From NCBI GenBank assembly GCA_950295325.1, contig OX485808.1:8186501-8250500 (forward strand): a DNA stretch of 64,000 bases, in the 5' to 3' direction. How positions within the stretch are numbered: the stretch's first letter is position 1; every line of letters begins with the position of its first letter. The notes under the pieces are model-generated. The model ran no database searches and was not told where the DNA came from. It saw only the letters and a program-made list of their open reading frames with translations. The position numbers and the translations under genes were made by a program. Positions 13,111 to 62,826 of the stretch are shown here, piece after piece. This DNA comes from Polytrichum commune (Eukaryota > Streptophyta > Polytrichopsida > Polytrichales > Polytrichaceae).

Positions 13111-13859
13111 CAGAGCCCTACATTGGGTGCCCATACCCATGCCCATGCCCACCCATGCCCATGGGTTTTGGGTGGGCATGGGTGGGCATGGCTACGATAT
13201 TATTGTTCATGGGTGGGCATGGGTGGGCATGGCTGCGATATTATTGTTCATGGGTGGGCATGGGTTTGATATTATAATGGGTGGGCATGGGCTAAAGCAA
13301 AGCATATTGGAAGGGGTCATTAAATGAGCTCTCATTCAATGCTTTCGAGGGTAAGAGCACCGAATCACCTTCACCCAGTAAGGTGAGTCCATCCTTCAGT
13401 GTGTCTTCTTCTTGTTCTCCTCCTCCTCCTTCTTGAGTGTGTCCTTGGGCTCCCAAGAATCCTCGGTCTCTTTTTTGTGACTTTCTTGTGCTTCTGCTTT
13501 TCCCACCCTACCTTAAACCCAGTCCTGCCAAGAGGATTCCAAAACTTAAGAAAGAGAGGATGTTGTAAAGTGGTAGGGAGCGAGAGGAAAAAATGCAGGG
13601 AATACGCTAACCAAGAAGCGCTCCGGGCTGAAGCCAGCGATAGTGAACGACCTTTTATTTGTCCGATCCAACCAAGACTTGGTGTAGGCGGGTAATACAC
13701 ATTACACAATTTTTGAATACATGGGCGCAATTTGAATAGCATGGGTGGGGCATGGGTGGGCACATGTCATGCTATGGGTGGGCATGGGTGGGCATAGGTT
13801 GCTGCTGATGGGCATGGTCCGGGTATGGGTGCAAATTTAAAGGAAAATGTTGGGCTCTG
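13111..13859 (+). mobile_element. hAT transposon derivative, copy 1, with G-rich subterminal arrays
   Basis: The element begins CAGAGCCCTACATTGGG and ends with the complement of CAGAGCCCAACATTTTCC. It is flanked by a perfect 8-bp duplication GTGTATGT (13103-13110 and 13860-13867), the hAT hallmark. Both ends hold arrays of the 10-mer GGGTGGGCAT. Positions 13601-13687 encode the last 29 residues of a hAT transposase on the plus strand, ending at TAG. The middle (about 13320-13600) does not match the other copies and may be captured sequence. It is a non-autonomous deletion derivative; the perfect duplication suggests recent insertion. Confidence 0.9.
13601..13687 (+). pseudogene. hAT transposase C-terminal fragment (copy 1)
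   Basis: The frame reads NTLTKKRSGLKPAIVNDLLF and onward to NQDLV then stop, nearly identical to the end of the longer fragment in copy 3 at 43131-43565. This is the tail of the hAT C-terminal dimerisation domain (TxxRxxLxPxxVxxLLF). Everything upstream of it in the domain is missing. Confidence 0.8.
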
Positions 13860-13879
13860 GTGTATGTATATAGGGGGGT

Positions 13880-15035
13880 TTAATTTCATAGTGTTCGCGG
13901 GTTAGGCCGAAGTCAGCAACCTTGACGGTATAGATACCTTTGTCAGAAGAAGGATCTTCGGGAGTGACAAGAATGTTCAGTGACTTGAGGTCCGGTGTGA
14001 CATGCCCATTGTGGTGTGGATATACTCCATTCCTTGCGCAATTTGCAACCTGAGATCAACAACTTGGAAATGTGAGAAAGGTGAGTTTGTCTGGCCGCAG
14101 TTGACACATTATGTTTCCCAGCAGACCGTACAAGTCTGTATGCATGCATTTCATGATAAGCTCGCATTTGTCTGCGGCCTCCGAGCAGCGGATTCGATGC
14201 ACTAATTAGTGCGGGTGGTTAGATATGGCAGGAGCACTTATCTCTTGCCTCAAGATTGGTTTTCTCAATTAGCCGGAGAAAGAGAGTTTTCTTGGCCTAC
14301 TTCTCACCGAGCCAAATGTTTTCGACACACACACTTTACCGCCTTCAGCAATCAATTTACCTGGAGGAAGTACTTGTGCATTCAACCTTAAGAAGACGCA
14401 AGGTGACCCATTGAAATCATTTGTAGTGCTCCTCCCAGCTATCACCGGCTCATGCGAGTCTGCGGCCTTCCATATTTCAACCAGCTGACATGCAAGGCAT
14501 ACGTTGCTCATCATTATGCCATTTTTGCCATTCTAATCACCCCACTCACCGCTACAAACATGGTTCCCCTTCAATTGTCCTCACTACTAGGCTCGGGAAG
14601 TTTCACAAAAATCGATGCCATTATGCTAGTATTGTAGCCTTACGTACGACTGTAACTGAAAGTATATCACTTTCTAAACCAATTATTAAGAATCTCTTCA
14701 GCCTCCTTCGTTGCTGCGCTCAACTGGTGAACGACATCCAACTTTCCTTCACATGCTTCTTCATCAAACACGTTGCCGCCATGTAACAATTGCTCACCTA
14801 ATTCAGAAGCAACAACACTCCAAAGACACCAGCTCAAGAGAAGTGATTTCATGCACCATTGTAGACCATATAAGATCACTGCAAAATCTTCCTCAGGGCG
14901 ACCTTGCTTGATGGCTACTTCCAATCACTGATCTACATAACAACAATCTGCGATGAGCTTTTGTACACGCTTCACCAAACGATAGAGTTGTGGTGCCACT
15001 GCAGGAACCCGTGCTCGCGGAAACTGCCATGCTAA
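13880..15035 (-). pseudogene. Protein kinase pseudogene
   Basis: The minus strand carries, in order, an N-terminal helical segment (about 15035-14670) with QLYRLVKRVQKLIADCCYVDQ split by a TGA, and GLQWCMKSLLLSWCLWSVV. Then come ELIMKCMHTDLYGLL (about 14170-14110), LQIAQGMEYIHTTMG (about 14050-14010), the catalytic loop as PDLKSLNIL (about 13992-13970) and VKVADFGLTRE (about 13920-13890). Kinase subdomains VIb and VII are recognisable, but the H-R of HRD is lost at a frameshift, several frames are needed, and the glycine loop and the C-lobe after DFG are absent. The remnant stops 13 bases short of the hAT target duplication. The N-terminal part resembles the helical region of some plant MLKL-like or receptor-like cytoplasmic kinases; that assignment is tentative. 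Confidence 0.7.
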
Positions 15036-20255: not shown

Positions 20256-20579
20256 CAGAGCCCAACATTTTCCTTTCTAATTGCACCCATACCCAGACCA
20301 TGCCCATCAGCAACGACCTATGCCCACCCATGCCCACCCATAGCATGACATGTGCGCACCCATGCCCACCCATGCCCACACATAGCATGACATGTGCCCA
20401 CCCATGCCCACCCATGCTATTCAAATTGCGCCCATGTATTCAAAAATTGTGTAATGTGTAATGTGTAATTGTGTAATTGTGTAATTATGCCCCACCCATG
20501 CCCACCCATGCCCGCCCATGAACAATAATATTGCACCCATGCCCACCCAAAACCCATGGGCGCCCGATGTAGGGCTCTG
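20256..20579 (-). mobile_element. hAT MITE, copy 2, with C/G-rich subterminal arrays
   Basis: The element runs in the opposite orientation to copy 1: it starts CAGAGCCCAACATTTTCC and ends with the complement of CAGAGCCCTACAT. It has a perfect 8-bp target duplication CTTGTCAC (20248-20255 and 20580-20587). It is only 324 bp, consists almost wholly of CCCACCCATG repeats plus a short ATTGTGTAAT-rich centre, and has no transposase sequence. It lies about 720 bp past the 3' end of the PI4K-alpha coding region. Confidence 0.9.
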
Positions 20580-27200: not shown

Positions 27201-30200
27201 CCAGGGTGCGATGAAAAATGAGTATGTGTCTGTACTGAGCCTTGCATCAAGCGCACCATGAGCAGTAACTGGTCACTACCACTGTGCTTCATGACCTGCA
27301 CACAAATATGGTGTTAATTCATCGCATTTAACCAATTTTTCACAAAAATAAGAATATATTATATGATCTGATAGGATTCTATTACAATGGAAGTACAGGA
27401 ACACAAGCCACACCTCCCATTTTTGAACTCATTCAATTTATAGACTCCACACTCCATCTAAAATAAAACCTCAGTTTTCATTTACTAAGTTCCACCAACC
27501 TCAAATCTGTCAAGGAAGAAGCCAAGCCATAATCTATGCGCGGTTATTCCTTCCATAGGATCTTCAGCAGGACACGGTAGAGGCTCTCCAGGAGTCAACT
27601 GGGGACGGAGTTGCATTACAGGGCCTGAAGTACAAATACCTGCAGAAAACAAACCTCGCCTGCTTTCCATTGTCCACAACCATGCATCTACAAGCTCTGC
27701 TAACACCAAAGAACTCAAGTGAGGGGTTGCTGCAAAAAGCCATGTCCATACATATACTCCTGTTTCCATCACTTCCGAAGTAAATATGTGTGCAGGACTC
27801 CAACACAGCAGTCGCAGTAGCTGGAATGTGCCTTTAGTTGTTACCCTCGCTTTGCTCTGCACATAAATTGGAAGTTTCAATACGGATGCATTCCTGTCTG
27901 TCACAATGCACACACAACCTTCTGCACAACATTAAGCCTCAAACATCTATACCCACAATACCTTCACTGAATTTTTGATACACGCTAAGAAAGCAGAAGA
28001 AGAGTGTCATATCTGTACCACATCAGACAAGAGAAGAGCAGCAGCTTGTAAGCAAGCATCACGATATCTCCCTTTATCTATAGATAGCCCAAGCTGTGCG
28101 TCATTCACAAACTGCTGAAGCTGCTGTATAAATCGATCAATAAGAATGACATGTGATGAGCCCTCTCCATCATCTTCGTCTCCATTCCCCTTCTTTTCTA
28201 CTTTGTTTCTGGGCCTTTGTACATCTGTTAGTGTCAGAGTGCCCATGCTGACCCCAATCATGCGCTTCATTCCAGCAATCTCCCCAACATAATTTGATTT
28301 TACATTTGCACTTGTAATCCCAACAGAGAGCACATCCATGCTGCTCATGTCACCCCCAGCAGCAGCTGCAGTTGCAGCTGTGACTGCAGGGACAGCACCC
28401 ATGATAGAGGCACTTGGATCCAGCCGGATATCTGACAATAGCGCAATTATGTCACTTGAGTGAGATACATTCTGGGATGTTGTCACTTGCCGGAAATATT
28501 CCTGTAGTCCAGATAGCCAGCCCAAATTATTAGTTGCATCCCTCAAAGGCATCTCTAAAACGGTGTTGAAGAACACCTGACAGTTCACTGTTCTCACACT
28601 AAGAAATTCAAGCTTCTCTTAGCGAAGTGCAAATCTGCTGTAAAGTTAACATCACTTCCCATACCTTGAGATGAGATTCAACAACATTGATAAGTGCATC
28701 CAATAGTTGTCTTGATCATATGAACCTCACATGTTATACAGAATGTCTCCATTTGCAGTAGGATGAAGGATGGATGAAATAATTAACTACATATGACCCA
28801 CCTGTATGAGGCCCTGTGTTGTGGATGGAGCAAATAACAGAGCATAGGTAATCCACTCTTGCACTCGTTGATGTGTCAGTGCACGAATAGCAGTAACTAC
28901 CCCAGAGTCCACACCAGGCAAAAGTGGAGGTTGCTCTGATAATAATCGTAACATTGCTTCCAAACACCTCTTATTCCACAATACCTGAAACAAAGTAAAA
29001 TTATGAAGCTTATAAGTTCTAGGTCTTATAACTTCAGTTCAAAGAAAACATCCCCAATCAGAGAATCAGAAAACCATGTTATTTATTTTATCTGAATGGA
29101 GCTACACTATATACTCAAAGCTGATGTAGCAATCATAAGACATGCAATAAGGCTAGAACACAGAGGTTTGAGCAAACACGTACTTGTGGAAATTTGTTTC
29201 TCAGCTGACTAAGTAAGCTATCCGCAATTTCACGAACTGACTCATCCCGATGTGACGCATACTTTATCAAGAAACGGGTATGAGCCGTTAAGATTTCTTG
29301 TTTTGTCTCCACCTCTTCTCCACTCAAAAAAGGCTCTTCCTCCTGCCATAATAGTGCTGATTAAGCAGACTAATAGACAAAGTGAGGCCACACCAGAATG
29401 CAAATTATGAAATGCATGAAGCATGAAGATATATAGCAACTCGGTGACAAACTGATTATCCCTTGGAAGGGTTTCCCAAAAAATTGTACCAAACTATATA
29501 TTTTTCTAAGTCTGAGGTACAAACATATGTATAATCCATGTCTCCTTATTTGGTTCAGCTCTATGTAGAACATTGGCAATGGCATATTAGATCCATATTT
29601 TACCAGCCATGTAAGAGCAGCACCAAAGGCACGATAGACAATTGCAACCAGACACTGGTATACAGCAGGATTTGGGCTTGGAGTCTCCAAGTATGCAAAT
29701 AGGCAAATTAGAGCACTTCTCATCCCTCCCTCTGTTTTCTTGTTTAACAATCCTCCACAGTGAGTGAGTCGCAATGTCTCCAAGAAGACAACTGCTAGCA
29801 GATAGGTTGCCTTAACCCCTACACACAACAAAAGAACCTCAAAGTTATAATGACAATTGACCATTTGGAAACAGTCCTTGAGACAGTGACCTATAAATGT
29901 TTGTGTCCTCTCCAAAGACATTTAATTATCCATAACATCACCCTTCCACCCTGTTGCATGATATTTGAATCACAAATCTAACCAAGCATGAACCAGATGT
30001 TCAAATTTGCATAAGAGTTCAGAGACAACCCAGAAGCAGGATACCGTAGATTAATCACCACCGGACATTTTAACAGTTGTACCTGTTATTGTGTACATAG
30101 AAGCCACATCAACTTGCCCACCCAACGCTGCAGAAAGAACTGTGCGTTGAGCATTCACTGCCTTTTCACTATTGCTAGCTCTGCGACTATCTGGGTTGTG

Positions 30201-33200
30201 TAGTGCATTCAGTTCCTGCTCATCTTCCAGCCACTTCACTGAGCTCACAACCTATTTTCAAAAATCATGTACACAGCACAAACTCAGGAACTAGATGGGG
30301 TAGTCACTGACCTGATCAAGAACAGAGAAAAGGCATATTATTGTAATGGCTTAGCTAGAGGATACGTAGATTTTTGTAAGCTCATTGACCGGCTACAACC
30401 CTACATGCAAGAACTTTACAAATTTGGCTGTGTCACTTGACTTGATCAATTTTCTATAATTTAAAAGTGTCATTGCATGTGTAGCATAAACAACTCACCA
30501 ATGGTGGGGTGACTAGACTAAGGCGTCGAACAGATGCAGACCATTCAGGACTCCATAAATAAGGGCCAGATACTGATTGGATCCCACTCATGAATGCTTG
30601 ACTTCTGCCCATTGAAGATGATTTTGATGACGCCTGAGATTTTTGGATAGGTGGGGCTAAACCAAACAAAGCAATGTAGAACCACAAGTTGCGTAGCAAC
30701 TTTAATGAAGGCAGTTCCATCTCTTCTACAGGGTCTACATCTGAGCATATTTCAGCCAAAGCTGGAAGAAGTGGTCCGAGAAGCTGTACCCCACTCCTGT
30801 ATATCGAATGTTACAAGTCAGACTCTTTACAGACCACTTGAAAAAGCTGTGTAGAGATTCCTAAGATATAATCAGGATTTGTACAAACCTATGCTCATAT
30901 GTTTCTAGTGTACTCTGAACACCTACTCAACTGCACAGTTGTTGACAGACAAGATTATGTGAGAGTTGTACCTTCCATCATTGGCCTCAGTGGCTAGACC
31001 AACATCAGAGAACAGAATCAGCATACGCTGCCGGTAATCACATCGTAATTTTGCATCTTTCAACCTCTGAGCAATACATAAGAAAGCACCTGGCAGAGTC
31101 TGCAACAAACAATAAAATTAATTGGTTGCATACTTGCCAGTTCCTAGAGTAATGAGTGAAATTGGGCACAAGTATACACATACCTCTTGGTAGTGCTACA
31201 GCATGAAAATTGCCAAAACAATGCTGATGGTGACTGGAGAGCAGAGACAATACCTCCTCACACTCGGTAGTAAACTCAGGAGCAAGGGGATGACTGTAGG
31301 TTGGATCAGCAACGAAGAGCCTGCTCATATAGCTACGTGTCAGCTGCACTACAACCTCCCTGTATGACTTGTCACAACCCAAGCATGCCATACGTGCCAG
31401 TGCATCCAAGACCTGCACCAGAGGTTGTCTGTTACTATTATTTTGCCATCAGAAGCAGTGAAGTCTGATAAACATTCAAATTACACTAACTAGGATGTAT
31501 GACTGCAAGATATAGAGCGGTCTATACTTACTTTGAGGCGTACAAGACTTGGAACAGAGGCATCGCCCTCTTCCAGGCTCTCTATGAAAAGAGGCAAAAT
31601 CAAATCAACTGCAGCTGACTTGTTCAACAAGACAGCAACATCTGCCAAGGCAGAGATTACATTGAGCTGGGTCACTGCTGTCATTTGCTTCTCTTTCTTT
31701 TCCTGCTCCAGCACCATGTCAGCTCACTGTTTAGATACTGGCAGCCTTCAAATAGCTTAAGACCAAGTCATAGACAACTGCTACATTCCATGGTTCAGCA
31801 GACTTAAGGGCTCCCAAAACCTTGGGGTCCTTCAGGTTCTTAAATGTAATATTATTGTGTCATTGGATGTGGATCCTATCTATCCCCTTTCAGAATGCAC
31901 TAGAGTTTGAAACATATGTAGCAGGCATTGCAGCACCAAGGTGCCATCTGTGAAAGTCAATCACGTCACTGCATTGTTCTTTCTTCGAAAGCCTCCAGTC
32001 TTACCCAGGCATAAGGAACAAATGTGAGATACAATGAAACATTTGCAGAAGATGCAGTTTTTGAACTGACAACTGGCAATGCTTACATTAGGCTTCATGC
32101 CTGTGAGATAAGATTTGGTAAGCAGTCAATAGTTCTTTGTGGTCGAAGAACATAACCCTTTGGCTGATGGGGTTCATTTGTTCTACATTCAATATCTCAT
32201 CCAGGGTCTCTTTAGTCCAATGATCTTTACAAAGAACAGTGCATTCACGTCAAAAATCTCAACCAGTATGTATTCATTCACCTGTGCCAATCGCTCCCTA
32301 ACATAAGCTGCCAAAGATAAGAGGAAGGACTCGACTGCTGCCTTATCAGAATTCCAGCCCTCTGCAATCAATGTGCAAATAGAGCTGATAACACTTGCTG
32401 AAAGGGAATTTTGACTTATTCCTGACGTGTCTACCTGCAATTCAATCAGCCTCTATCAGTTGATCCATCTGGCTGTAACACATCAGAAAGGAGAACTGCT
32501 TGATGATGTGTTAGGCAGAAGGGAAGTGATGGTTCGGAGCAGTGACCTACTTGACCGCAGATAGCCAGCAGAAGTGTCTTGAACCGTAGGAGAAGGATCC
32601 TGAGCATCTGGCTGCCATATGAGGCACCAACTTTTGCAACGCCAGAAACTAAAATTCCAACAAGAACTTCACATGATTTTAATCTACGCCATGGTGATGT
32701 GATGCAAGCATCTGCCAAGTCCATCAACAATGACAATGTATCTCGAATCGGGGCCTTTGGCAACCTGCCATCTGAGTGGCTCCTCACCAATCTCCCTTTG
32801 TATTCGGGTTTAAGCAACAATTGGTGCTGCATAACAGCTGCAATTTGAGCAATTTGAAGCTTCACATTCATTTTGGCCAGCAGAGGGACGCCATCCACTG
32901 GCCAGTCTCGCTTACGAATCTGTGAGGAAAACAGTTAGACAAGCAGTCAAACATTTCGGATTCTTCCACATCTCTGCAGAAAGACCATGACCACCTGCAG
33001 TAGTCAATGAAGTAGACAGAAATTTATTATACTTGACAACACAGCCAAAAATCAGAGTTTTGAAAGGAACTGGTAATCCTATCGATATACCTATACAGCT
33101 ACAATGAGCAAAATAGAAGGTGAGGTGCATGCCTTTAAAAGAAGGACCAAATTTCTAAGGTGTCCAATAGTCACAGCTTTCAGTTGGGCAACAAGCTTCT

Positions 33201-35645: not shown

Positions 35646-37810
35646 TTAAGGTAACTGGGCCTAAAAATGGAGACTTTTAGCGCTGCACCCACTTCCCCTA
35701 TGGTATTAAACTAGGGTTTTAAACAAGCCCTGTACTAGCACAAGATCATTAGCAAATCCAAATCAAGGTCGTAGTCATTTCCTTCATAATTTTGGAAGCT
35801 CGTGTGAATATTCTATTCATTATCAAAGTGAAGATCCTCTTCTTCCTTGAATATGTAACATTTTTCAATGAATTGTGAGCAATTACTTATTAATCTTCTC
35901 GTAATCAAGTTGGTGATTATTGATTGAAAGGATGTTGACATAGGCTAACCAATTAAGTTTGGTGTTCACCATCCGAGATTCTTTATGAATTGGGACAATG
36001 ATGCACATAATGTTTGTGTGATGTTGGAATCTAGAGGGTTAGGTGCCAACCCCATGAAACCCGTAACTCCCCCCCCCCCCTCTTTGTGTTGACTATTGCC
36101 TATTAACACATGTTGAGCACATAGTCCAATCTCACTTTAACTCATATGTTTTTTTATGTACATTCTTGAATCCGTAATTGACCATTCAATTATTGATGTT
36201 CAATTGAAGTAAGTCACCAAATAAAATAGGTTTTCTTTACAGGGCAAACTTGCAATATGTGGGAGTTTGATCCTTGGAGTTGACAAGCGCTTCATCTAAT
36301 GCTTAAATTATTGAGAGCTTGAGGATTGGTCAATCTCTCAATAGTTTGAGCAAGTGTAAAAGTGCCCATGATGCTCAAAGTGTGACATCAATTTAGGGGA
36401 AACCATTTTAAACATGGGAGTAATCATGACAAGTCAAGGATGCTTGAAAATCCATTGGCTTAGTATTTCCCAACATGAGAGTTCTAGCTCTCGACATTCA
36501 TAAGCTATATGGTTCACGAAGATAGGTTAGGATTCAACTAAGAGCTTGTAAAGGAATGACTGAGAACGTGTCGTAATTGTTCCATGAAAGATTCATCAAA
36601 ATGACATATAAGCTTTTTCAGCCTAGGAGAAGTTGAAGCTCCCGAGTTGAAAGCTCAAGTATAAAGTGGACACTAGTAAAACACCCAACATCTTGGATGC
36701 ACAAATAACCAAACATTCTAATTTAGATATGCACAATATATAGGCAACCATATTAAAAAACATATTATGGCCACTCACTCACACCAATTCCAATTGCACC
36801 CTACGCCCACTCAACGCTAAAGATACATGGCCCACCTCCTATCCACATGTGCAATCCAACATATGAAAGGACTCTTAATAGCCAAACATGATCAAGCAAT
36901 CCAACTCATAGCACAAACACTACAAACCAACAAAATGACCAAATTCTTCACCCTCATAAATGCATGAACAAATCAACGACAAACCACAAGACTCCACAAT
37001 ACTTGAGTGGCTACACCCATGCACATGCCTCCAACAAACCATGCCAATGCACTACAAGACTAAGACCGGACATATTATACGTAATAGGAGCTTCGATATT
37101 AGTCACCCCCCCCCCCCCAATCCCCTCATTCAATCACACACTGCAACTCATGGAATTCAAATATTGCCATGATAAACACCCATAAATACCCATGAAAAAC
37201 AAAAACCGTATATGCAACCTAGTAACACACACACACACACATGTATATCCTCACAAAAAAATGGATGTAAAGTATACCCACTATAGTATACAATCCTTTC
37301 ATTGTGGGCTGCAATAATTTTCTAAAGCCCACACTAATTTTCAACCCACGCTAAAGTTCTAGTAGAACATTAGCTTGGGCCATAGTGATTATTATTTGTA
37401 GATAATCAATGTGGTGATTGCTTGTTTATGTACTACTTTTGATGTAAGGTGATTATTTTATTTTATGTAAGGTGTTGGTTGGAAGTCTTCATGAAGACTT
37501 AGGGGAAGACATGGGGTCTTGGATCCATGGTAATTCCACCTCAAATAAAAAATCAATGTGACTCATGTTAATAGGACTATTTAGTGTAGTTACCATCACG
37601 GCTGGAGTACAAGGAGCTATACACAAACACTCATTCACAAAGCTCAAATCCCTCCAAACCCACAAACCTACCATTAAAAACCTTATAAAACCAACACACC
37701 AAAACCCTAAACCCTAAATCCTAAACTTGACTAGCATCAAGCACTAATAACACCCATGCCATGACAACTGGCCACAACCATAGCTTACACTACACCACCA
37801 CCCCCCCCCC
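35646..37810. other. Gene-free DNA with dispersed repeat and homopolymers
   Basis: No gene is seen. It contains another dispersed-repeat copy (about 35675-35850), C tracts at 36069-36080 and 37106-37118, a short AC microsatellite near 37227-37241, and three telomere-like CCTAAA units at 37701-37726. Confidence 0.5.
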
Positions 37811-37969
37811 CATCATCCAAAAAGATGGCATTACTCTTTATACGTAATGGACGGCCACGATTACCTTAAAGAGTAACGGCTTACACTACCCCCCATCATC
37901 CAAAAAGATGGCATTACTCTTTATACGTAATGGACGACCATGATTACCTTAAAGAGTAATGGGCCGATA
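37811..37969. repeat. Tandem duplication of an 83-bp foldback unit
   Basis: CATCATCCAAAAAGATGGCA begins at 37811 and again at 37894. Each unit contains TTACTCTTTA and its complement TAAAGAGTAA about 35 bases apart, so each copy could form a small hairpin. An 11-base C run precedes the first unit. Confidence 0.8.
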
Positions 37970-39605: not shown

Positions 39606-39857
39606 GAACTACGATAGCATTCACATCCTCAAGGGCTTCTAATGTGAGGTGCAAGGAAGACACCACACTATATGCAACTTACAAATGAAGAACTACGATA
39701 GCATTCACATCCTCAAGGGCTTCTAATGTGAGGTGCAAGGAAGACACCACACTATATGCAACTTACAAATGAAGAACTACGATAGCATTCACATCCTCAA
39801 GGGCTTCTAATGTGAGGTGCAAGGAAGACACCACACTATATGCAACTTACAATTGAA
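39606..39857. repeat. 84-bp tandem repeat, three near-identical units
   Basis: Units start at 39606, 39690 and 39774 with GAACTACGATAGCATTCACA. The spacing is exactly 84 bases, a multiple of three, but each unit carries an in-frame TAA in the frame of the preceding open stretch (39331-39642). Near-identity points to a very recent expansion. Confidence 0.9.
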
Positions 39858-41342: not shown

Positions 41343-42983
41343 CCAAGGTTGCAGAAATCCTACATATGAATGCATAGTGGCAACTCACAAAATGTTGTTG
41401 ACACGCAAGCAAAGGAAATGTGATTCGTTCTTTAGTATTCATCCAACAAAGTGTGGTTTGTACTTGAAATCTTTGGCACATGGAAACGGAAAGGACTTTC
41501 TTCAGACCAAAAATTTTCCTTATGAATCTTGTATATGCATTTGGTAGTGGAAGCTTACAATGTGCTTGTGATTTTGACAAAGAAAAAATAGCATATTCTA
41601 AGTATACATACCACTTAGTAGTGAATTTGATAGAGATTAAACACTTAGCATGGTCTTTTTGCAACCTTTTGGACACTTTTGCGGTTTTCTCTAGATATAC
41701 CATGCCAATAGCAACCTAGCCAACAACATCGCCTCCTATGGCCCCTTGCTACCCCCTTCCCCCTGGTGCACTTTCTATTAACGTTGAGTTGGGCCTATCG
41801 CCCCAACCCATATTCCCTGTCAAACCATGCGAACCATTGTCTACCATCTAGCAACCGACCCATAATTTCTTGTAAAGTTAAAAGTTACTAACTAAACCCC
41901 TAAACCCCTAAAGTTTAAATTACAAGGATATCAATAATATGGTTTAGTGAATGTTTGACTAATTGGATCTACTTCATTAACATATTATGCACTATCTACA
42001 AACAATCAATTAGAGAGTAGTGTGTGGTCTCCGAAACATTTGAAGTGTCATGACTTGCTAGAAACTATAAAAAAAAATTGGATGGCTAGAATCTCCTTAC
42101 TTTCATGTCCATGTTGATGCTTCAGATTTTTGCCAAAATGTCTTTACCTTCTTGTCGGGGGGGGGGGGGATTGACTCATTGGGGAGGTTCATATGGCATG
42201 TGCAACTGAGGGGTATTTTGATGTAGAGGTTGTATTAAATAGACAATTGCATTACCTAATTGATGTTTTAGAATACCAAACATTACTTAGAGTTGAGGGA
42301 GGGCAATAATACTTTATACCATTCCTTCATTATATCAAAAATAGCTTTGTGTAAGGGTTAAATTAAAGAACACCAATTGTCACATGTATAACCGTACCCA
42401 AACAACCAATCATCACAAGTGACAAAGATAGCCATACTAAAACAACAAAGAAACATCACAAAGCAACGGATACATAACCTATGTTCACATAATATCCGTT
42501 TTTGGTCCATACAAACAAAGTGTACTCCAAATTGCATAGTACATTCTTTTATTACAAACCATAAAATAAATCTAAAACAATAAAATTGGTCAAATTATGC
42601 ATAACACTCCATTTGTTATAATTTGCAATTCTCTATATTGTAAACAATAATTTACTTCCAAGAAATGTAGACTTTACATCCATTTTGCATTCACATACTC
42701 CGTTGGTCCCTCAAGCGTATTGTGAAGCGAACTTGGACCGGCTCCACCTTTTCCACCAACAAGAGTGCTTGAAGTGCCAATGGTCACGGGCCCTCAGTCT
42801 TGTCTGTGAAGTGGGCCATAGGCCATTGCAATGCATGCATAAAACCCCGGAAGGGGATTTGCCTGGGATTTGGCGAGAGAATTTAGTGTATTGAGGGCCA
42901 CTTCACACACAAGACTGAGAGCCCGTGACCATTGCACTTCAAGCACTCTCATTAGTGGAAAAGGCATAGCCAGTCCAAGTTCT
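41343..42983. other. Gene-free AT-rich DNA
   Basis: No gene recognised. A 13-base G tract lies at 42157-42169. Confidence 0.5.
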
Positions 42984-42991
42984 CTTCACAC

Positions 42992-43690
42992 CAGAGCCCA
43001 ACATTTTTCCTTTAAATTGCACCCAGACCCAGACCATGCCCATCAACAACGACCTATGCCCACCCATGCCCACCCATGCTATTCAAATTGCTCCCATGTA
43101 TTCAAAAATTGTGTAACGTGCATTACCTGCCTACACCAAGTCTTGGTTGGATTGGACAAATAAAAGGTCGTTCACTATCGCTGGCTTCAGCCTGGAGCGC
43201 TTCTTGGTTAGTGTATTCCTTGCATCCGAGAAGTTTGACTCCGATTTGGAGTTGGATGCAGGGATGCACAAAACCGAACGCGCCACGCGCGACATGATGG
43301 GGAATCTGGGGGCTCCTTTCAGCTTCCACCACAAGAGAATATTGAATTTCGCAGTGGTATCTCGATTCATTGGCAATGCTAAGCTCACCGCTGCAATGAT
43401 CTCATTTTTTCCGAGATCAGTGACCTTGTATGTCTCATACATACTGAACTCAAGCTCAATACGTGCGTTGAAGTTGCTAACAACTACGATCTCAACCCCA
43501 TTGTCATGAATCTCTTCTAACTCATCCTCAAACTCATCGTTATGCCCATGCCCACCCATGCCCACCCATTATAATATCGAACCCATGCTCACCCATGAAC
43601 AATAATATCGCAGCCATGCCCACCCAAAACCTATGGTCATGGGTGGGCATGGGCATGGGCATGGGTATGGGCACCCAATGTAGGGCTCTG
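42992..43690 (-). mobile_element. hAT transposon derivative, copy 3, with transposase C-terminus
   Basis: Same family as 13111-13859 and 20256-20579, in minus orientation. It starts CAGAGCCCAACATTTTTCC, ends with the complement of CAGAGCCCTACATTGGGT, and has a perfect 8-bp duplication CTTCACAC (42984-42991 and 43691-43698). CCCACCCATG arrays lie at both ends. It keeps more transposase than the other copies (43131-43565, minus) but lacks the catalytic core, so it is non-autonomous. Confidence 0.92.
43131..43565 (-). pseudogene. hAT transposase C-terminal dimerisation domain, open frame of 144 codons
   Basis: The frame starts with MGMGGHGHN, encoded by the subterminal repeat itself. It continues through KFNILLWWKLKGAPRFPIMS, ARSVLCIPASNSKSESNFSD and RNTLTKKRSRLKPAIVNDLL to a stop at 43131. 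WW-FP-AR-IPAS-SE-FS-R is the hAT dimerisation signature. The DDE catalytic part and the zinc finger are absent. The lack of stops suggests recent deletion or some constraint. Confidence 0.85.
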
Positions 43691-43698
43691 CTTCACAC

Positions 43699-44100
43699 TA
43701 CGCTTGAGGGACCAACGGAGTATGTCAATGCAAGATGGATGTAAAGTCTACATGGATTCCTACATGGCATCAAATAGATCATGTTTCATGGTCACTTGGA
43801 CTATTTTCAAAAACCACCTCTTGGAGGTAGGCCTAACACAAAATTGGGAGACCATAGCACTCCGAACGCTCACAACCGTTGATTTATTCTACTTTATCAT
43901 GTGCGAGGACCCGCATGAATGGAAATTCATTGAAATAGCATTTGGTTGAGGGCCCAATCACATATGACTTCACACTACACTTGAAGATCCATGACCACAC
44001 TACATGATTTTGGAGGTGTGTTGGGACGGCCTTTGGACACTTTCTTTTGGGCTCTCACAATCTCATGGTCACGGCTCTTGGCTCATGTGTGAAGTGACCC
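43699..44100. other. Short spacer between two DNA transposons
   Basis: An open stretch at 43704-43949 shows no recognisable protein. The sequence flanking copy 3 is imperfectly mirrored across it: 42900-42990 and 43691-44100 share phrases such as CTTCACACTACACTTGA and ATGACCA, suggesting an older host repeat. Confidence 0.4.
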
Positions 44101-44103
44101 TAA

Positions 44104-44816
44104 GGACCGCTTTACACCTAGGAGCGGGGCCAATTCCCCTAGAGGCTGATTACATGAAATTTCAGCCCCTTTTGGGTTGGAGGCCGACCTCAACTACACA
44201 TTATAATAAGATTATAATGGGGGCCAATTTTCCCATATGTAAAGGCCTTAGGGCCAAGAAGCTAGGCCGATTCAATAAATCTAGCATAACCCAACGATTC
44301 TAGCATAATCTAGCATAGAGCCGTTCATGTTTCCACATAATCCAATGGATATGGTTCGCTCAAAAAAATCATATTTTATTAAAAAAAAATTCATTGAAAT
44401 TTGACATTGGCCCCGAGGCCAAGAATTGGCCTTCCATTTTGGGTGCACCCAACTCAATGAGCTTGGGCCGTGTCAGACCATGCATTTTTTGATTAGAAAA
44501 TTCATACCATCAAATCGGCCCGGCCTCTAGGTGTAAAGGGGTTGGGGCCGACTTGAGCCTTTTGGACAATCACAAGTGAGGATTTCAAGCCTCTTACACA
44601 ACGAATCGGCCCCGCCTCTAGGTGTAAGGGGTTGGGGCCGATTTCAACCTCTTGACCAATCACAAGTGAGGATTTCAAGCCTCTTACACAACGAATCGGC
44701 CCGGCCTCTAGGTGTAAAGGGGTTGGGACCAATTTCAGCCTTTTGACCAATCACAAGTGAAGATTTCAAGCCTCTTACACAATGAATTGGCCCGGCCCCT
44801 GGGTGTAAAGCGGCCC
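44104..44816. mobile_element. PIF/Harbinger-like element with an internal array of its own end
   Basis: The left end GGACCGCTTTACACC and the complement of the right end, GGGCCGCTTTACACC, form terminal inverted repeats that continue imperfectly for about 35 bases. A 3-bp TAA lies directly on both sides (44101-44103 and 44817-44819), the target type of PIF/Harbinger elements. The right third is a 91-bp tandem array. There is no transposase, so it is non-autonomous. The superfamily call rests on the TAA duplication and the GG/CC ends. Confidence 0.75.
44513..44816. repeat. 91-bp tandem repeat, 3.3 units
   Basis: Units start at 44513, 44604, 44694 and 44785 (partial), each opening AATCGGCCCGGCC or a variant and containing CTAGGTGTAAAGGGGTTGGG. 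The last, partial unit is the right terminus of the surrounding transposon, so the array is built from copies of the terminal inverted repeat plus about 60 bases of inner sequence. Confidence 0.9.
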
Positions 44817-51130: not shown

Positions 51131-54100
51131 ATGGCAACGACGACGGTTTCTATTGCGTCGCCAACAAGCTCGCAGCAAAGGAGCTTGCTTGGCCAGCAGG
51201 AACTGAGCTCGCTGGGAATTGAGGGGTCCTCATCGTCATCGTCATCGCGGGTTAGGTTTCTGGGGTCGAGCAATAGCGCGTTATTGAAATGCGAGCGGGA
51301 GTATTTCCAGGTGAGCAGTAGTAGTGGTAGTAGCTCGGGGAATTGGCCACGGGTGGGGCGGCGAGCTTCATCGATTTGGAGTGCTGTGAGTGCTCGCGGC
51401 AGCAATGCTGGAATTGGGTTGCCGAGTAGCACTGAAGAATTGAGCAAGAAGAAAAGTTTCAAAGGTTTGGAGTCTTCCAGCTCGGTGCCCATCCAATTCG
51501 AGAGTGGAGAAGAGCCGCCCACCGTTGTATCTGCGCCGAACCGAAGGATAGTGGCCAGTAAGTAAATTCTTTCATCATTGACAATTTGATGTATGATGTG
51601 TGTGGACTAAGTAAAATCATCATATTCACAATTTGATGAACGATGTGTATGGACTACGTAGTTTTTCATATTCACAATTTGATGAACAATGTGTCTGGAC
51701 TAAGTAGTTTTTCATTTTCACAATTTGATGAACGATGTGTCTGGACTAAGTAAGTGCTCATATCACAATTTGATGAATGCCGTTTATGGACTAAGTAATT
51801 CCTAATATTCACAATTTGATGAATTACGTGTATGCTCTTTGCGAGTGGTCTCAAGTCGGAGGATAAAGAAGATGTATCTGAATTTGTGGGTTCTGTGTCC
51901 GTTGATTCATTAGCGCTGGTAAACCCCTCTCCCAGTGCCAAAAAGACTTAGCAAAAAATAAAAAAATAAAAAAGTAAGGGATCCACGTCATGAGTAAAGT
52001 GAAGTATTTTCCGTCCACATGGCTCAAGAGCACACTTGTGACGATTGCACTTTCGTAGTGCTAAGGAGAAGCCCTTTTGAAGAAGGTTTCCCTCTTGTAT
52101 GTCTGCACGCAAACTCAGTCCAGGTCATTGTGAGTCACAATATGTTAAATCATCGTGGCAATTAATCTCCAGTGAGAGGAGCTCCCTTTAGGACTAACTC
52201 TTAAAGGCCTGAGGCGTGAAGCATTATCTGAAATCTGTTTATAAATTATCATTTTCAAGGGATGCTTGAGAACCATCAAAAAGTGTGAGGCACCATCAGA
52301 GGATCACAACCATATAGATGAATTACAGATAGTATATATTGGTGGATTGTTGCAAGCATAATATGCTTTTGAAGTGATCAAATTTTCAAACTGATTCTTT
52401 AGATGTGAGCACATCATGAGGTATAGAAACTCATTCATGAAAAGTCCAGAAAGGATCTTACAATGATGAGAGGTGGAATGCAGTTGGTGATTTACATGGG
52501 GACTTTGAAAGAACACAATGGGCTCTACAATTGGCTGGAGTTTTGAGCAAGGATGGGCTACATCGCTGGGTGGGGGGCACTACGGTATGTTACTTATTCA
52601 CAATCTACTGCATTCCATCACTTACTGCGAGAAGAACTTTTCTTTCATCAATGTAGTTTTCCTTGAAATTCCTAAACCCTAAACCATTGAAAACATTAAA
52701 TACATTGAATACATTAAATACATTAAATACATTGAAAACATTAAATACATTGAGTGCATTGGTGTTGATGGGAAAGGAAGCACCTCTTTTTTTTCTTTTA
52801 AAAAAAAAACATTTGGTCATGGATTTATGTGTGGCACTGGCATCTGTCAGGTTTTGGTGCAAGTTGGGGATGTGCTAGACAGAGGAGAGGACGAGATTGC
52901 CATCTTGTCACTTTTGGCATGGCTAGGGAAGCAAGCACGAAACAAGGGTGGGGCTGTCTTTCAGGTTTTTATTTGACTGCTCAACTCCAATCTTTTATGT
53001 TCTCAGAGTAACTTCTGAAAGAGAGGAGCTTTGTCCCAACTTGTGTGTGAGCACGTTCTGGTAGTAGAGTTATCCTCTTACTCAACGGGCCTCTAGGCTT
53101 GGAGTTGGTTGTTTTGCATACACTACCTTCCATGTTTGGTGGTAGTGTGGAGGTTTGAATGAAGAACATTTTATATTGGTTCATTGATGATCAAACTCTT
53201 TTTGAGATGCCAAGAGGTGCTTAATTGAGTTTGGCCCTCAATGAAGCAAGATGGGTTGCTCTTTACTTAGATTCAAACACTACCTCTGAGCTCATACCAC
53301 AAGTGGAAAGAAACTATTGATTCTGTATGCAAAACCACCATTGGGAAATCATAGGGGACGAACTCATGAGAAAGTCCCTTTGAGTTAAAGGATAACTTCA
53401 ATATAGCAATGACTTTGTCTTACCTATCAAATTAATGAAGTTCGTCAATGACTTAATTGGATGGACCTTGATGCATTTGAAAACATATGCTCTCTTTTTA
53501 CACAGGTCCTGGGAAACCATGAGACGATGAATGTGGCGGGTGACTTCCGATATGTTGCACCTGGTGGGTTTCAAGAAGCAGAGGCATTTGCAGAGTACTG
53601 TGAAGAAGAGCACGGCGGCGACTGGGATGCAGCATTTGAAGTATGGCATGAAGCATCCCAAGAACTCAAAAGTGGCCATAGAATGGACCTCACTGGCTGG
53701 CTGCCTATGTTCAATCCTCTTAGGGTACGTGCTCATGACTTCCAACTACACTAAACATCTGATTTAGTGTGGCATTAAAATTGGTGTGCCATATTAATTA
53801 GAGCGGTCTTCATGACTTGTCATGTAGCATGAAGTGTCATATGACACCTTCTCTAGTTTCCACTCAATGAATGCAAGATAATTAATATGGATCAATGATG
53901 AATGATAGTGCAGGTCAGATTAAAAGTGTAGTGCACAACAAGAATGTGAAAGTGATTTGAGTTTGTTCCCTTTTGATGAGGCTGCTGGTCAAATGGACAG
54001 GGTTTTCTGTTACCACAGATCACAAATTTGTAAACAACGTTGACCCTTAAAGGGACTGGGGATATGTTTATATGGGATACATGACAGTTTGTCCAAAACC

Positions 54101-61686: not shown

Positions 61687-62826
61687 TCATTTTGGTAACA
61701 CTAGTGTTTCTCCAACGACAATGTTATTTCCGTCTCCAATTTTGTTCACTGCTACCAAGGAATCCACTGACACCTGGGCATGGCATAAAAGTTCACAGTT
61801 AATAAGCGCTTAGAACATCAAGCAAGAACGAATATCACACAAGCTTCACTGCGTGAAATCTGAACTCCAGACACCCAGTCCTCAAATTCTACTGTGTAGT
61901 ACTCATGTATGTGCATTGTAACAGTGTAAACCAAAGGAAGTCTTTGGGACTGAAGGTGAGAAGAAAAATATCTGAGAGCGTTTCAATGAAGGAACGAAGT
62001 TCATTGTGTCAATGATAAAGCATAAATCTCTTGATCTCGATAGTGATCCCTTGACTCAAAGAAACTCGGTTAACACGTCAAGATGATTCTGGTTACGAAG
62101 TCTTACCCCATATTTCCGGGCAATACCCCAGAGTGTGTCACCCGAATGTACTTCAATTGTTTGGCCACCAACTTTCTTGTGCAAACCGTTCAGTTTAGCC
62201 TTTTGGGTTTTATTGTGGCCGAATTGAGAATGCCCCCTTCCTGCAGCTTCCAAGGAGCCCTTTACTTCCTTGCCCGCAAGTTCTCCATTCTCGACACCTT
62301 TCACTTCTTTGCCACCTCCAACCAGGGTGCCCTTGATTTCCCTGCCCACATCTTTCAAACCTTCCTTGATATCCTTGTCAACCTCCTCCGCGTTCGCTAA
62401 AGGTCCCTGCGTACAGTGATGTGCAGTAGCGCATAACACCAACAATTTCTTGTTATTATAATAAACTTCCAACATGATCAAGGAAATTGGCCCCTCAATA
62501 GTAAAGGAAGAATTCTTTTGCTTCATATTTGGGTAACATCCGTTGCAAATGTGTTACTTCATATTAATTCATCTCCTACCGCTTGCAAGGAACCACATCG
62601 GCGTAATACGCACCTTCTCTTTAGATTCGCCCTCCTTTGTGACGTGTTCTTGAGTGTGCACAAATTGCTTTTTATTTCCTCTCCCGGTAACCGATCTGAA
62701 CAAGCTCCAAGCAATGCCCGCGCCAACGAGGACACCTGCGGCCTTGGCAATGGTTTCATCCTTGATAGGTTTTCCTTCCTTTCCTGCTTTAGGAGGCCCT
62801 CCATGTTTGGCATCATTAGCTGCCAT
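61687..62826 (-). CDS. LysM-domain membrane protein, 3 exons, 199 aa
   Basis: Exons (minus): 62826-62614, 62406-62107, 61773-61687; all GT-AG, 600 nt in frame. The N-terminus MAANDAKHGG leads to a single hydrophobic segment AAGVLVGAGIAWSLF (about 29-43), a likely membrane anchor with no cleavable signal. A Lys/Glu/Gly-rich linker follows (about 72-150) with repeated GREIKG and GKEVKG blocks that look LEA-like. The C-terminus is one LysM domain (about 153-199), beginning TIEVHSGDTLWGIARKYG and closing with VSVDSLVAVNKIGDGNNIVV and TLVLPK; the domain is split by intron 2 after YG. LysM domains often bind GlcNAc-containing glycans, but without a signal peptide or kinase domain this is not a chitin receptor. 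It resembles the small LysM proteins of unknown function found in plants. The first ATG of this frame was taken as the start. Confidence 0.9.

Follow-up and report, generated by a model that had tools for sequence, protein, structure and literature searches.

The TIRs of hAT transposons are short and start with YARNG, and in the Ac/Ds system non-autonomous deletion derivatives are known. According to the available portion of PMC10368747, Tol2, Tag1, Ac, and Hermes need about 100–220 bp of end sequence, and the BED zinc finger of Hermes binds short end repeats, whose motifs are AAGT/AAGC and whose orientation is asymmetric between the two ends. The accessible text of PMC3143072 gives CG/AATTCAT as the sequence bound by Herves, and cites a report that the plant hAT element Tag1 uses AAACCC and TGACCC. 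Quadruplex-forming sequences, on the other side of the subject, are carried by plant LTR retrotransposons, some of them with CD evidence, as stated in the available excerpts of PMC3902901 and PMC5838962. The accessible part of a human survey (PMC4407331) also lists hAT-Charlie among the TE groups with quadruplex-forming sequences.

Here we compare these systems with a locus of Polytrichum commune, a 64,000-nucleotide stretch of contig OX485808.1 that is hereafter called the window. An initial annotation, made from the letters of this DNA, had reported hAT elements with G-rich subterminal arrays that match the quadruplex consensus, and its author knew of no hAT family described with such a design. 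On the second point, searches of open-access full texts gave no title on quadruplexes at hAT ends or in hAT subterminal repeats; a hAT group, hAT-Charlie, is listed in the accessible part of PMC4407331.

Three non-autonomous members of one hAT family

A search of the whole window for CAGAGCC ... GGCTCTG with matching flanks returned exactly three pairs, which delimit three related elements, A, B, and C, with CAGAGCCC termini and an 8-bp TSD that is perfect in all three. Copy A (13111–13859, forward strand, 749 bp), which is classed as a non-autonomous hAT element by its TIR and perfect TSD, is flanked on both sides by GTGTATGT. Copy B (20256–20579, reverse strand) is 324 bp long, consists of the two ends alone, and has the TSD CTTGTCAC. 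Copy C (42992–43690, reverse strand, 699 bp) has the TSD CTTCACAC and sits inside one arm of a fold-back repeat. A is therefore on the opposite strand to B and C. The TIRs, CAGAGCCCWACAT, are 13–14 bp long with one internal mismatch between the two ends, and CAGAG is present at all six ends. Together, the elements occupy 1772 of the 64,000 bases (2.8% of the window). The remaining CAGAGCC/GGCTCTG sites in the window form no pair with matching 8-bp flanks, even when one mismatch is allowed, and a BLAST search of the window with the three elements as queries (E 1e-3) found only the elements themselves and one another. By the MITE criterion of a short, non-coding element, B fits, as it has no hAT frame, A does not fully fit, and C does not fit, as it has a 145-codon hAT frame.

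The surroundings of copy C record its insertion. The fold-back (long inverted repeat) spans 42665–43753, with arms at 42665–42817 and 42895–43753, the second of which is split by the element. Once the flanks of C are brought together around one copy of the target, the joined sequence can be aligned through the junction to the intact partner arm with no gap. This arm reads CTTCACAA, in one copy, where the target of C is the near-identical CTTCACAC, and it thereby provides a direct view of the empty site for C.

The hAT identity given in the initial annotation is borne out not only by the 8-bp TSD and TIR, but also by a transposase remnant. Copy C has an open frame (43131–43568, reverse strand) of 145 codons plus a stop, about the first nine codons of which are array sequence. 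Its residues 68–141 (43146–43367) match the hAT dimerisation region, PF05699 (E = 7.6e-21, 74.2 bits versus a cut-off of 21.4), and the protein matches the Hermes transposase with E = 6.5e-10. Residue 110 is Glu and aligns, as counted on the alignment, with position 572 of the full-length Hermes chain, which we take to be the catalytic glutamate. Only the Glu region of the DDE triad is present in these copies, while the regions of both Asp are absent. Copy A retains the end of a transposase-like frame (13592–13678, forward strand; the last 28 codons plus the stop), which corresponds to the end of the hAT dimerisation region and is homologous to copy C. On its own, this frame end scores under the PF05699 cut-off (E = 0.011, 16.0 bits versus 21.4), and A and C are 94.7% identical over 170 nt in the BLAST of C against the window. 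Copy B has no hAT dimerisation frame. The scanned frames of the three copies gave no Pfam match to the N-terminal BED zinc finger, and none of them retains the transposase N-terminus. For an autonomous partner in the window, all 16 stop-to-stop ORFs with 130 aa or more and selected shorter frames were scanned with Pfam, and a hAT domain was found only in the copy C frame. The PF05699 and Hermes matches in C indicate that the copies derive by internal deletion from an autonomous hAT element outside the view, and all three are non-autonomous representatives of a single hAT family, shortened by internal deletion. Pack-type gene capture was considered for the interiors of A and C and ruled out for C, because the interior of C holds the hAT transposase domain.

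The interior of A (about 13297–13592, 0.3 kb) gave no Pfam match near the cut-off in the scanned frames and has no second copy in the window. It carries AAGGTGAGT, which resembles a 5′ splice site. Beside the 3′ end of A, at 13840–14055 on the reverse strand, lies a protein-kinase-like fragment (PF00069, E = 4e-4, 20.3 bits, under the cut-off of 31.7), which is possibly a decayed kinase gene. Elsewhere in the window, five ORFs at 27488–32934 (reverse strand) match the PI4-kinase N-terminal region PF19274 and are probably exons of a single gene, and an ORF at 62059–62553 (reverse strand) contains a LysM domain (PF01476, E = 1.9e-6). Minisatellite-like tandem arrays are located at 39606–39857 (84 bp), 44513–44810 (91 bp), 51559–51834 (46/91 bp), and 37806–37959 (83-bp period). 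No relative of the protein encoded by copy C was confirmed among prokaryote genomes (65 pattern matches), viral contigs (7), or phages, and a 20-mer had no match in the viral contigs; these collections are non-eukaryote, so both results carry little weight. Rfam at gathering scores gave 0 matches.

Subterminal arrays and their match to the quadruplex consensus

The tandem 10-mer GGGTGGGCAT, to which the initial annotation had drawn attention, is far more frequent than chance allows. It has 21 exact matches in the 64 kb, all of them inside A, B, and C, as compared to 0.17 expected, and none of 100 shuffles reaches this number. At one mismatch or less there are 26 units; the mismatch of the five inexact ones breaks a G-run in two cases and leaves the G-runs intact in three. 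Twenty-four of the 26 units are on the transposase sense strand and two on the opposite strand, with the same bias at both ends, and any sense transcript crossing the ends would therefore carry units. All 26 are subterminal, at distances of up to 178 bp from the 5′ end (178 in A, 82 in B, and 143 in C) or up to 158 bp from the 3′ end (106, 158, and 84, respectively), a position that fits hAT binding repeats, as had been suggested. The sense-strand units number six in A, three in B, and four in C at the 5′ end, and three, six, and two, respectively, at the 3′ end. The repeat number, the conservation of which had been put forward as a test, thus ranges from 2 to 6 per end among the six ends.

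In the transposase orientation, the 5′ end of A and C opens with a C-rich array on the outside, and a G-rich array lies inward of it; B is without the outer array. In A, the outer C-rich array (13127–13161, forward strand) contains the unit in reverse orientation and forms the left hairpin arm, and the 5′ G-rich subterminal array (13163–13291, forward strand) contains the six sense-strand GGGTGGGCAT units. The 3′ G-rich subterminal array of A is located at 13739–13795 (forward strand), and this end has one extra, longer GGGTGGGG variant. In B, the 5′ and 3′ G-rich arrays occupy 20486–20555 and 20316–20417 (both reverse strand), the latter with a 42-bp higher-order repeat. In C (reverse strand), the outer C-rich array (43634–43673) is a hairpin arm, the 5′ G-rich subterminal array (43545–43633) holds one broken unit, GGGTGAGCAT, and the 3′ G-rich array (43055–43079) has two units. 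In each of the three copies, a distance of exactly 64 bp separates the end of the final 3′ unit from the terminus. The unit starts are mostly spaced by 10, 22, 31, or 32 bp (11 bp for the GGGTGGGG variant), with 27 bp occurring twice, and these spacings, few of which are independent, are mostly close to whole helical turns.

How well do the arrays match the quadruplex consensus? Using the G3+N1-7 rule and counting non-overlapping matches across the window, we found 17 matches: 5 in A, 5 in B, 3 in C, and 4 elsewhere, three of which hold runs of at least 12 G. The shuffled window yields a mean of 0.34 matches and a maximum of 3 (200 shuffles), and each element exceeds all 2000 of its own dinucleotide shuffles. 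Accordingly, the consensus match that had been claimed holds, with 13 of the 17 window matches in the elements. Within 13111–13300, three matches are present, at 13142–13160 (reverse strand), 13163–13182 (forward strand), and 13211–13227 (forward strand). The 17-mer GGGTGGGCATGGGTGGG, with loops of 1-3-1, has 8 exact matches and is absent from 100 shuffles; every match is on the sense strand, and none of the six ends is without one. This sequence, which had been described at both ends of A and C and as repeated in B, is therefore present at both ends of B as well. The G4Hunter prediction across the copies is graded. At |score| ≥ 1.5 the elements own 12 of the 33 window stretches, some of which overlap, while at |score| ≥ 1.75 they own 2 of 14, and they are thus not the strongest sites of the window. 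RNA folding that permits quadruplexes places one or more of them in the optimal structure of every one of the six ends.

The same stretches also form another structure. In A and C, the C-rich outer array of the 5′ end pairs with the G-rich inner one to give a hairpin of 13 to 20 stacked pairs (13111–13191 and 43609–43690). In A, the arms of the inverted repeat, 13143–13161 and 13173–13191, are 19 nt long and 100% identical. The A stem has a folding energy of −29.3 kcal/mol (z −3.85) and the C stem −24.8 kcal/mol (z −3.23), and in neither case does any of 200 shuffles fold as well. The 5′ end of B shows no stem excess (z −0.27, with equally good folds in 67 of 200 shuffles), and neither do the 3′ ends of A (z −0.97) and C (z +0.66) as compared to shuffles; the B 3′ end was folded without a shuffle control. 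In the 5′ ends of A and C, the stem would be a competitor of any quadruplex, because both draw on the same bases.

Finally, we compared the copies for G-run integrity, which had been proposed alongside repeat number as a sign of constraint. Substitutions affect 9 of 227 positions in G or C runs of three or more and 35 of 527 positions outside them (Fisher p = 0.18), in three pairwise, non-independent comparisons of both end blocks with an uncertain repeat alignment and low power. The G-run data neither support nor exclude a constraint on folding.

Candidate roles of the arrays

The simplest reading, and probably the correct one, sees the arrays as subterminal repeats for transposase binding that slippage has amplified, and their quadruplex potential as a by-product. 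The missing autonomous transposase would most likely bind the GGGTGGGCAT units at the two ends through its N-terminal zinc finger, which is assumed here, and binding at both ends would then lead to the assembly of the excision complex, as suggested by the unit positions and by the other hAT elements. The unit number differs between the copies, and the process that altered it was probably slippage and duplication. Tandem repetition of a motif with two G3 tracts would create the quadruplex match, which is probably not the reason that the repeats were kept. G4 matches would arise automatically when a G/C-tract motif is repeated in tandem. Several observations point to putative binding sites: the units are confined to the subterminal zone of both ends, which resembles the end lengths that other hAT elements need, the 3′ distance of 64 bp is constant in all three copies, the unit spacing is mostly near helical turns, and the G-runs are not significantly better preserved than other positions. 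The reported Tag1 motifs, AAACCC and TGACCC, provide a precedent for a G/C-tract motif. The constant 64-bp distance and the unit positions may, however, reflect just common descent, and the one-strand arrangement of the units at both ends is not the mirror layout expected of symmetrical ends. The sequence shows the hAT identity, the arrays, their orientation, and the differing unit number; from these we infer transposase binding, slippage, and the lack of a quadruplex role.

A G-rich subterminal stretch might instead have grown by slippage in one ancestor and then been carried along by transposition as a neutral minisatellite, with neither binding nor a purposeful fold. Consistent with this idea, the unit number is unequal between the copies, tandem-repeat periods of 6, 10, and 41–42 bp overlap within the same array stretches, and the G-runs have no significant excess of conservation. 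At both ends, nevertheless, the units occupy the subterminal zone of hAT elements, with the constant 3′ distance, and at least two units plus one exact 17-mer GGGTGGGCATGGGTGGG are kept at all six ends. This retention would be expected even without selection, since A and C have diverged by about 5%. We consider such a neutral origin unlikely, although it retains an appreciable chance. If the arrays were instead functional quadruplexes, the G-rich strand would fold at both ends and alter excision, replication, or silencing; alternatively, as the G-rich strand is also the sense strand of the transposase, quadruplexes in the untranslated parts of the RNA would damp transposase expression. The exact consensus match at all six ends, the sense-strand placement of 24 units, and the RNA-fold optima are in line with a folding function, as is the lowered reporter translation in yeast caused by a plus-strand G4 of a maize LTR, described in the available part of PMC5838962. 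The authors of that text, however, deduce that plus-strand G4 are selected against in maize, opposite to the pattern here. Furthermore, the G-run preservation is not significant, with the low power mentioned above, and hairpins are rival folds at the 5′ ends of A and C. We consider a functional quadruplex improbable. The suggestion in the initial annotation that the binding sites themselves fold into quadruplexes and thereby affect excision or silencing is possible, but it gained no support beyond the consensus match.

The hairpin itself could be what matters, if the 5′ stem of outer C-rich and inner G-rich arrays served, for example, in strand transfer or as a small-RNA source. The stems of A and C, which surpass all of their shuffles, speak for this role, but B has a perfect TSD without a 5′ stem, and no stem is seen at the 3′ end of either A or C; we consider this role very improbable. 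It is also conceivable that binding and folding are combined, such that the repeats are bound as duplex for excision and double as sense-strand quadruplexes at both ends. Folding in the single-stranded or transcribed state would damp transposase expression or block re-binding, and the arrays would act as a built-in copy-number brake. We regard this combination as highly improbable.

What would each outcome mean? If the repeats both bind and fold, the family would offer a clean system for asking whether the DNA structure of transposon ends controls excision; the papers on transposon quadruplexes cited here concern, in the text available, mainly retrotransposons. If the repeats only bind, as the preferred reading of transposase-binding repeats would have it, a tandem G-tract motif yields quadruplex matches as a by-product, which is a caution for G4 surveys of transposons.

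Comparison with known systems

The family shares its basic layout with Ac/Ds, Tag1, Tol2, Hermes, and Herves: an 8-bp TSD, short TIRs, a C-terminal dimerisation domain, and short repeats clustered within about 200 bp of the ends. Ac/Ds likewise has non-autonomous deletion derivatives, as represented here by A, B, and C. When compared by the reported hexamers, Arabidopsis Tag1 has motifs with a CCC tract, similar to the G/C-tract unit here. The AAACCC/GGGTTT hexamer occurs three times in A, once in B, and not in C, and the TGACCC/GGGTCA hexamer occurs once, in A only. Tag1-like hexamers as the family motif were ruled out, as both are absent from copy C, and this absence argues against a closer link to Tag1.

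As regards quadruplexes, plant LTR retrotransposons (Lexa 2014, Tokan 2018) likewise have potential quadruplexes at preferred places near the element ends, in the available excerpts of PMC3902901 and PMC5838962. They are Class I elements with the motif in LTRs near promoters, and some of their sequences were folded in vitro, according to these excerpts. Human hAT-Charlie is a hAT group listed with quadruplex-forming sequences, and the accessible part of the survey (PMC4407331) is silent on subterminal binding repeats.

Nearly all units lie on one strand at both ends here, and the repeats of Hermes, as far as the available descriptions go, are asymmetric too. The motifs named for Hermes, Herves, and Tag1 in those descriptions have no second G3 tract, in contrast to the unit of A, B, and C, which is G-rich and whose tandem 10-mers fit the G4 consensus. 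What distinguishes this hAT family is its G-rich tandem unit together with the sense-strand bias.
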